DNA of 35,255 nt from Spirochaetales bacterium (lineage in GTDB: Bacteria; Spirochaetota; Spirochaetia; Treponematales; UBA12059): assembly GCA_016928955.1 (NCBI GenBank), contig JAFGJV010000038.1:1-35255 (forward strand), written 5' to 3'. A program made the translations under genes and the position numbers. Positions 4,425 through 35,255 of the stretch are shown here, one piece after another. Position 1 is the stretch's first letter; each line of letters opens with the position of its first letter. The notes under the pieces are model-generated. The model had not been told where the DNA came from, searched no databases, and was given only the letters and a program-made list of their open reading frames with translations.

Positions 4425-4460
4425 GGGAATCTCTAAAACCCGATGGCCCTTAGGGACTCT
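4425..4460 (-). repeat. Degenerate fragment of the 109-nt hairpin element
   Basis: GGGAATCTCTAAAA, then CCC, a base, ATGG and TTAG align with the hairpin III end of the copy at 31901-32009 with one gap and about six mismatches over roughly 31 bases. The second arm is partly destroyed. It lies at the junction between the AT-rich block and the GC-rich housekeeping genes, downstream of the gene ending at 4545. Confidence 0.4.
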
Positions 4461-4544
4461 ATTCAAAAAGAAGAGCCCAATACGGCATCTGTCTGGCAAA
4501 TAGAGCCCCCCTCAACCTCAGGTCAGACGAGAATTACTGTCCGA

Positions 4545-12152: not shown

Positions 12153-12443
12153 GGTGCCACGATTTCCCGTCAATCATCCATGCTGGAGTATTCTCGCCCA
12201 GGCGGCTGTCCAGGCCGCGCCGAGCGCTTCCAGCCTGGGCTGGCGGGCAATCCACAGAGGAGGCGCCTTGCAACCCACCGGTGTTTGGCGTCTTTCGACA
12301 AATTACTACAGGGAGCCGCTTAAAAACTTCGGTTTTAAGCGGGTTACCTTAGGAAACGAGCGTTTTCGACCGAAAACGCAGGGAACATCCAATAACCATG
12401 GGGTTAGTGGATGCTCCCTATTGAACCTTAAAAGGAGGGTTCC
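12153..12443 (+). promoter_or_regulatory. Long structured 5' leader of serA
   Basis: No gene is visible in this leader of about 285 nt. It contains a 7-bp stem CCCAGGC (12197-12203) with GCCTGGG (12233-12239), then the complete hairpin element at 12311-12419. Next come GAACC and GGTTC, which could pair around the Shine-Dalgarno sequence AAGGAGG just before the ATG at 12444. The layout suggests post-transcriptional control of serine synthesis, but no known riboswitch class is recognised. Confidence 0.5.
12311..12419 (+). repeat. 109-nt three-hairpin element, copy A (in the serA leader)
   Basis: Same length and order as the copies at 14423 and 31901: hairpin I (arms CCGCTTAAAA and TTTTAAGCGG), conserved linker GGTTACCTTAG, hairpin II (GCGTTTTC and GAAAACGC), then a long imperfect hairpin III between GGGAACATCC and GGATGCTCCC. 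Relative to the other copies both arms of hairpin I have changed together, so the pairing is kept. It ends about 10 bases before the serA ribosome-binding site. Confidence 0.9.
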
Positions 12444-13326: not shown

Positions 13327-14421
13327 ATGAAACGCGTCATCAACTACGCGGCCGGCCCCGCCGCCATACCCATGGAAGTCCTTGAGCAGGCCCGCGACGA
13401 AATGCTGGACTGGAACGGCACCGGCTGCTCCGTCATGGAAGTGTCGCACCGCGGCAAGGAATACGACGCCCTGCACATGGGCACCATGGACCTGTTCCGC
13501 GAGATAGCCGGGCTCCCGTCAGACTACCACGTCCTTTTCACCACCGGCGGCGCCAGCACCCAGTTCCTCATGCTCCCTATGAACTACCTGGGAGCCGGCA
13601 AGGAAGCCGACTACGTGATCACCGGCAACTGGTCCAAGGGCGCCGTCAAGGAAGCCAAGCGTTACGGCAAGATCTCCCACCCGGCCAACATGGAGCTGGA
13701 GGGCGAGCGCTTTGTGGCCATACCCAAGCAGGCCGAGCTGAATTTCAACCCGGCCGCCGAGTACGTGCACTACACCAGCAACAACACGGTGGAAGGCACC
13801 CAGTGGCACTACATACCGGACGTCAAGGGCAAGCCCCTGGTGTGCGACATGTCCAGCGACATATTCAGCCGGCCCCTGGACTTTACCAAGTACAGCATGA
13901 TCTACGCCGGCGCCCAGAAGAACCTGGGTCCCTCCGGAGTGACCGTGGTGGCCATCAAGGACGAGTTCCTCCAGAAGGCCAACGCCGACCTGCCCACCAT
14001 GATGTCGTACAAGGTGTTCAAGGAGAAATTCTCCATGCACAACACCCCGCCCTGCTTCTCCATCTACATCCTGAACCTGGTGCTCCGCTGGCTCAAGAAG
14101 AACGGCGGCCTGGCGGCCATGGGCAAGATCAACGAGCAGAAGCAGAAACTCCTGTACACCGCGGTTGACGGCTCCGGCGGCTACTACCAGGGCCTGGCCC
14201 AGCCGGAGTCCCGCTCATGGATGAACATAGACTTCAAGCTTCCCACGCCGGAGCTGGACGCCAAATTCGTGACAGACGCCAAAGCGGCTGGCATCGTGCA
14301 AACCAAGGGCTACCGCACCATGGGCGGCATACGCCTGTCCGCGTACAACGCGGTGTCCCTCAAGGACGTGGAGACCACGGTCCAGTTCATGCAGGATTTC
14401 AAGGCCAAGAACCCAGCCTAA
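13327..14421 (+). CDS. serC: Phosphoserine aminotransferase
   Basis: A 364-residue PLP enzyme (class V aminotransferase fold) that transfers an amino group from glutamate to 3-phosphohydroxypyruvate, giving phosphoserine. The start FxAGPAAIP and the SVMEVSHRG motif are typical of SerC, and the PLP-binding lysine is Lys198 in YAGAQKNLGPSG. Length equals that of the family. AAGGAG overlaps the serA stop, with 10 bp between the genes, so they form one operon. The phosphatase for the last step (serB) is not in the window. Copy B of the hairpin element starts two bases after the stop, followed by a bidirectional terminator. Confidence 0.97.
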   Translation: MKRVINYAAGPAAIPMEVLEQARDEMLDWNGTGCSVMEVSHRGKEYDALHMGTMDLFREIAGLPSDYHVLFTTGGASTQFLMLPMNYLGAGKEADYVITGNWSKGAVKEAKRYGKISHPANMELEGERFVAIPKQAELNFNPAAEYVHYTSNNTVEGTQWHYIPDVKGKPLVCDMSSDIFSRPLDFTKYSMIYAGAQKNLGPSGVTVVAIKDEFLQKANADLPTMMSYKVFKEKFSMHNTPPCFSIYILNLVLRWLKKNGGLAAMGKINEQKQKLLYTAVDGSGGYYQGLAQPESRSWMNIDFKLPTPELDAKFVTDAKAAGIVQTKGYRTMGGIRLSAYNAVSLKDVETTVQFMQDFKAKNPA

Positions 14422-14422
14422 A

Positions 14423-14531
14423 GGGAGCCTCTAAAAACTTCAGTTTTTAGAGGATTACCTTAGAAAACCTTGCGTTTTCAGCCGAAAACGCAGGGAACAT
14501 CTAATAACCATTGGGTTATTAGATGTTCCCT
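14423..14531 (+). repeat. 109-nt three-hairpin element, copy B (3' of serC)
   Basis: The best-preserved copy. Hairpin I: CCTCTAAAAA (14428-14437) with TTTTTAGAGG (14444-14453). Hairpin II: GCGTTTTC (14472-14479) with GAAAACGC (14484-14491). Hairpin III: a perfect 16-bp stem, 14493-14508 with 14515-14530, loop CATTGG. The element begins GGGAGCC and ends GTTCCCT. It would be transcribed as the serC 3' end. Confidence 0.93.
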
Positions 14532-14550
14532 AAAGTCCTACTGACACGAC

Positions 14551-14587
14551 ACAAAAACCCGCCCGGTCAGACCGGGCGGGTTTTTGT
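14551..14587. terminator. Bidirectional Rho-independent terminator between serC and a lipoprotein gene
   Basis: A perfect 17-bp inverted repeat (ACAAAAACCCGCCCGGT, loop CAG) with A-tract on the left and T-tract on the right; it can end serC on the plus strand and the convergent lipoprotein gene on the minus strand. Confidence 0.95.
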
Positions 14588-31872: not shown

Positions 31873-31900
31873 CGCCCGCCCTCATCCCGAGCAGGCTGTT

Positions 31901-32009
31901 GGGAACCTCTAAAAACCCCATGGTTATTAGAGGTTCCCTGCGTTTTCGTCCGAAAACGCAAGGTTTTCTAAGGTAACCCTCTAAAAACTGCAGTTTTTAG
32001 AGGCTCCCT
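31901..32009 (-). repeat. 109-nt three-hairpin element, copy C (between convergent genes)
   Basis: Reverse orientation, differing from copy B at about eight positions. The ends, minus-strand AGGGAGCCTCTAAAAAC and the complement of the other end AGGGAACCTCTAAAAAC, are 17-bp terminal inverted repeats with one mismatch. Direct repeat CTGTTG occurs at 31896-31901 and 32008-32013 across both edges, and an outer imperfect repeat GCAGGCTGTTG / CAATACCCTGC (31891-31901, 32030-32040) encloses it. These edges look like the traces of an insertion. Confidence 0.92.
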
Positions 32010-32039
32010 GTTGAAACGCAGCGAGTTTTCAATACCCTG

Positions 32040-35123: not shown

Positions 35124-35171
35124 AGGAGCCTCTAAAGCTGCAGGTTATAGAGGTTTACCTTAGAAACCTTG
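35124..35171 (+). repeat. 109-nt element, copy D (truncated)
   Basis: AGGAGCCTCTAAA, then a changed loop and TAGAGG, followed by TTACCTTAGAAACCTTGC, aligns with hairpin I and the linker of the full copies. The match ends where hairpin II should begin. It lies about 56 bp after the zwf stop. Confidence 0.75.
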
Positions 35172-35255
35172 CTTACTGCCGCGAACCTTATTGGTCGCTC
35201 TGGGAGCTAGGGCTTCGTCCGACCTCAGGCAAGGGCGAACCTCGGCGTATACGCC
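35172..35255 (-). other. Window-edge open frame, unassigned
   Basis: On the minus strand a frame reads in from the window edge and ends TAA inside the truncated repeat (near 35162). The segment (YAEVRPCLRSDEALAPRATNK and so on) is not recognised and could be the C-terminus of a gene to the right or chance. The 12-bp palindrome GGCGTATACGCC lies at 35244-35255. Confidence 0.2.

Follow-up and report, generated by a model that had tools for sequence, protein, structure and literature searches.

The three-hairpin repeat at positions 14423-14530 is very probably a non-autonomous MITE of treponeme-like spirochaetes, likely moved in trans by a DDE transposase of the IS5 family. By every criterion testable here the repeat is a MITE, and it moves or has moved. 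The window, 35,255 nucleotides in length, makes up the whole of contig G000:C51 in a spirochaete genome of 2.87 Mb in 59 contigs. An initial annotation of this DNA described three full and two broken copies of a 109-nt element. The three full copies, at 12311-12418(+), 14423-14530(+) and 31901-32008(-), are real and far beyond chance: blastn against the 2.87-Mb genome gives 40 same-strand matches that span all or nearly all of the element, with E values of 1e-19 to 1e-56. The unit, however, is 108 nt long, running from GGGA to TCCC, and base 109 is part of a target duplication. The features are as follows, with covariance-model scores where they apply.

14423..14530, forward strand: copy B, complete three-hairpin MITE (130.0 bits, E 6e-27), with flanks TAAA/TAAA
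14419..14422, forward strand: left target-site duplication (TSD) of copy B, TAAA, which takes in the stop codon TAA of the ORF at 13327-14421
14531..14534, forward strand: right TSD of copy B, TAAA, read from the sequence
14423..14459, forward strand: hairpin I of copy B, the left palindromic end, GGGAGCCTCTAAAAACTTCAGTTTTTAGAGG plus its ATTACC foot
14423..14439, forward strand: left terminal inverted repeat (TIR) of copy B, GGGAGCCTCTAAAAACT, the same as in the IS5-family IS of relatives
14472..14491, forward strand: hairpin II of copy B, GCGTTTTC-AGCC-GAAAACGC
14493..14530, forward strand: hairpin III of copy B, the right palindromic end
12311..12418, forward strand: copy A, full length, diverged (104.4 bits, E 2e-21)
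31901..32008, reverse strand: copy C, full length (133.1 bits, E 1e-27)
31897..31900 and 32009..32012, reverse strand: TSDs of copy C, reading AACA on the strand of the element (locus L005)
35124..35218, forward strand: copy D, decayed (31.1 bits, E 2e-5)
4425..4511, reverse strand: copy E, a doubtful remnant of hairpin III (12.6 bits, E 0.22, not significant)

The element codes for nothing. Its ends read GGGA(G/A)CCTCTAAAAAC on both sides, forming TIRs, and each end is itself a palindrome of 36-38 bp, with a third palindrome between the two. The inverted ends were previously put at 17 bp with one mismatch in copy C; the length of about 17 bp stands, but mismatches are more numerous: most copies have one at position 5 (G/A), and A and B have more. 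In copy A, hairpin I is CCGCTTAAAA/TTTTAAGCGG and the TSD is no longer exact (TACA/TATT). Of the two broken copies, the one at 35124 is significant, with hairpin I and the linker retained and hairpins II and III degraded; the one at 4425 is not, though by eye it resembles a remnant of hairpin III. The GC content of the first 5000 positions of the window is 53%, compared to 62-68% in the rest. At copy B, the duplicated TAAA contains the stop codon of the aminotransferase-like gene lying upstream, and hence the end of that gene is intact. A strong terminator-like hairpin, AAAACCCGCCCGGTCAGACCGGGCGGGTTTTTG, lies directly 3' of copy B at window positions 14554-14587 and is presumably the terminator of the same gene.

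Target duplications and empty sites provide the evidence for movement. Exact 4-bp TSDs were found directly outside GGGA...TCCC in 19 of 27 copies, compared to a mean of 1.97 and a maximum of 7 in 5000 shuffles. The excess is seen at 4 bp only, with nothing comparable at other lengths, and the target consensus, C-TAAA-G, is AT-rich. All 27 copies examined are intergenic by simple ORF calling, with none inside a gene. Tandem copies lie in the same or the opposite orientation to genes in 6 and 5 cases, with 8 copies between divergent and 5 between convergent genes, showing no preference for orientation or gene side. A comparison of sites with and without the insert, as the initial annotation had proposed, was possible for related elements in G024, whose genus belongs to another family of the order than the window's species. 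There, the element at G024:621490 has empty orthologous sites in the same-genus genomes G055 and G067, and that at G024:1084719 is lacking in G055, G067, G027 and G070; the empty sites carry a single TGAA or TATA. At a third orthologous site, the element is missing from three genomes, complete in G024 and reduced in G055 to hairpin I and the linker, indicating decay by deletion.

The element is abundant and widely distributed. A covariance-model search, the check suggested for finding further copies, located it at at least 51 distinct places in the genome, a count of places drawn from at most 65 scored candidates, some of which are reverse-strand shadows. The end motif GGGARCCTCTAAAAAC occurs 188 times in the genome at two or fewer mismatches, compared to once for the reversed control. 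Contigs of the assembly stop at element copies (G000 C42:25512, C27:62224 and C53:1); the true number of copies is therefore probably higher than counted, and the assembly may lack an IS. Among relatives, 17 of 59 were positive with the covariance model, spread over four families of the order. When the hairpin I core was compared with 84,980 species genomes, all 80 of the matches listed were from Spirochaetota, mostly Treponema, with T. vincentii and T. parvum among them, a result that confirms a spirochaete as host and speaks against a Desulfovibrio. Searches of plasmid, phage and viral collections gave no match to the element.

The element had been taken to belong to no known family, and our searches agree. 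None of 4227 Rfam families scored above the gathering threshold, and the sub-threshold matches are due to chance or pick up the terminator next to the element. The literature searched, mostly outside subscription journals, describes no such element in treponemes; a review of prokaryotic MITEs mentions neither Treponema nor spirochaetes, and none of the papers matched by a text search with the end motif dealt with bacterial repeats. Judged against Rfam and this literature, the element appears to be a new, order-wide and structurally unusual MITE, with palindromic ends and a replaceable middle hairpin.

We then looked for a transposase with matching ends, another proposal of the initial annotation, and found IS5-family IS in relatives but none in the element's own genome. 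Searches of this draft genome for DDE_Tnp_1 and for a homologue of the partner transposase found neither, and the mover is thus absent, lost or unassembled here. Pairs of TIRs lying 1.3-2.5 kb apart in the same genome were considered as IS candidates; the intervening ORFs were not transposase-like, and these pairs were set aside as separate insertions. The two genomes of the same family that contain the full element, G001 and G012, both have DDE_Tnp_1 genes, and the partner transposases score 278.5 and 294.4 bits against NCBIfam NF033581 (IS5 family; cut-off 140). In G001 the gene sits in an IS of 1261 bp with perfect GGGAACCTCTAAAAAC on both ends; this single full IS lacks an exact TSD. The IS5-family IS of relatives end in GGG[AC]ACCTCTAAAAAC and make 4-bp duplications. 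The complete genome G054 contains three IS copies with element-type ends and TSDs TAAA, ATAT and ATAT, and an IS of this type in G081 has the TSD TAAT. Such IS, with GGG[AC]ACCTCTAAAAAC ends or close variants, are seen in G054, G081, G039 and G093 (L110-L125), genomes with no detected MITE.

The common ends and the equal TSD length make the IS5 group the likely mover of the element, acting in trans. On this model, an IS5-family DDE transposase would recognise the ends GGGA(G/A)CCTCTAAAAAC that the non-coding element holds in common with the IS, and would cut a 4-bp AT-rich target (C-TAAA-G), leaving it duplicated. The transposase family is present in 11 of 99 relatives. In G054 the IS occurs with no detected MITE, and conversely several MITE-rich genomes have no detected IS. 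The IS ends hold the TIR without the palindromes of the MITE, so the latter did not arise from the known IS by simple internal deletion.

The earlier suggestion of a mobile unit of the MITE or REPIN kind holds for its first half. As a REPIN, the repeat would consist of paired palindromic REPs and depend on a RAYT (Y1) transposase for its movement, and it does have an inverted pair of palindromes, tens of intergenic copies and GGAG ahead of a hairpin. We reject this reading, to which we give next to no credence, because no Y1 transposase or RAYT gene was found (Y1_Tnp, PF01797, has 0 matches in the genome, compared to 10 of 14 control genomes positive) and because the TSDs are precise, while single-strand Y1 transposition makes none; the empty sites likewise contradict it, and the element's ends are of the IS5 type. 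A different possibility is that the mobile unit is the 36-bp palindrome, with the 108-nt element being a composite in which two of these units enclose a passenger hairpin. Units of the form GGGARCCTCTAAAAACTnnAGTTTTTAGAGGYTCCC do occur apart from the full element, as solos of the two element ends (e.g. G000:C40:9944-9979, C5:63861-63896 and C56:40207-40242), some with perfect 4-bp TSDs. Exact TSDs flank 10 of 30, compared to a mean of 1.5 and a maximum of 6 after shuffling, and solos with TSDs are found in other genera too. At one orthologous site, G024 has a solo, G067 is precisely empty and G070 has a hairpin III fragment, a pattern that fits either deletion or direct insertion. Yet some solos in G024 and G058 join the left end type of hairpin I to the right end type of hairpin III (GGGAACC...GAGATGCCC), the combination that a deletion running from one end palindrome to the other would leave; the end types of solos in G000 are mixed. 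The partial element in G055 likewise speaks for decay by deletion, and, from general knowledge, two abutting TIRs in 36 bp leave scant room for a paired-end synapsis. We therefore regard an independently mobile 36-bp unit as rather unlikely; most solos would instead be products of deletion between the two end palindromes, as with solo LTRs.

The paired stem changes originally quoted for hairpins I and III are correct, and their excess extends well beyond the window. Two-sided changes affect 12 of 35 pairs in the element's own genome (2.3 in shuffled controls), where hairpin II is nearly invariant. In alignments within two other lineage groups they affect 18 of 51 pairs (6.0 in controls) and 18 of 37 (6.3). 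Within hairpin II, they number 6 pairs in one cross-lineage alignment and 2 in the other. Elements built on the three-hairpin plan are found across four families of the order, with lengths of 108 to 144 nt and a hairpin II wholly different in sequence and length. The middle segment is almost always a hairpin in these other lineages, with z-scores mostly of -2.4 to -8.5, the exceptions being L250 (-1.6) and L253 (-0.3). In one family (L187 from Treponema vincentii, and L244-L249), the foot of hairpin II is near-constant (GCGA ... CTCGTC) and the distal stem shows paired changes.

Preservation of the fold, as initially claimed, thus stands as a pattern, but the paired changes do not prove that an RNA fold is under selection. 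The element could in principle be a structured RNA (a regulatory element, terminator or small RNA) whose dispersal was secondary and whose hairpins are kept by selection on the transcript. The covariation is strong, hairpin II is exchanged elsewhere for unrelated sequences that still fold, and copy B has a stop codon on one side and a terminator-like hairpin on the other, all of which speak for this reading. Against this, copies lack any preferred orientation relative to genes, Rfam gives no match, and one-sided changes show no significant wobble strand bias (GU versus AC 21:13, p=0.23). Cross-lineage alignments, furthermore, have two-sided changes far in excess of one-sided ones (31:13 and 38:6), as predicted by template switching, which is described as homogenising palindrome arms during replication and making two-sided changes (PMC8794818, PMC7202029). 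With few one-sided intermediates, no significant strand bias and no orientation preference, maintenance of the palindromes at the DNA level fits better than an RNA function, and we consider the structured-RNA reading improbable. Template switching may keep the palindromes intact, in combination with the persistence of mobile master copies. A further view is that of a MITE super-family with the tripartite plan itself as its conserved functional feature: mobility or silencing by the host would require extruded hairpins, of DNA or RNA, and the middle hairpin would be a replaceable cassette that lineages have exchanged throughout the history of the order; this we hold possible, if on the unlikely side.

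As a MITE with a likely mover now identified, the element accounts for numerous dispersed repeats of treponeme-like spirochaetes, oral Treponema species among them. It also offers a natural experiment on palindrome pairing, with one plan in many copies, sequence swapped between lineages, two-sided changes and few intermediates, so that maintenance by template switching versus selection on the fold becomes directly testable with its copies. Orthologous sites that differ in holding a full, partial or solo form can serve as markers of insertion and decay.

Among known systems, IS5-family MITEs and IS (NF033581) are alike in their terminal repeats, 4-bp TSDs, AT-rich target, intergenic position and dependence on a DDE transposase. 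The present element differs in having a full palindrome at each end and a third hairpin between them, whereas the partner IS is without palindromes. REP/REPIN elements with RAYT resemble it in their short inverted pairs of palindromes, high copy number and intergenic position; in contrast to these, it makes TSDs, and a Y1 transposase was not found. ERIC, BOX, Correia/NEMIS and the Rickettsia palindromic elements are similarly non-coding, dispersed and about 100-150 nt long with stable stems, and, compared by description rather than by sequence, they differ from this element, which has three separate hairpins and was found in spirochaetes only. Coxiella QMITE2 (PMC10969869), also a MITE of bacteria, resembles it in having TIRs and a transcript predicted to fold stably, but it is longer, with a core of 113-145 bp, direct repeats of 7-9 bp and TIRs of 23-29 bp.
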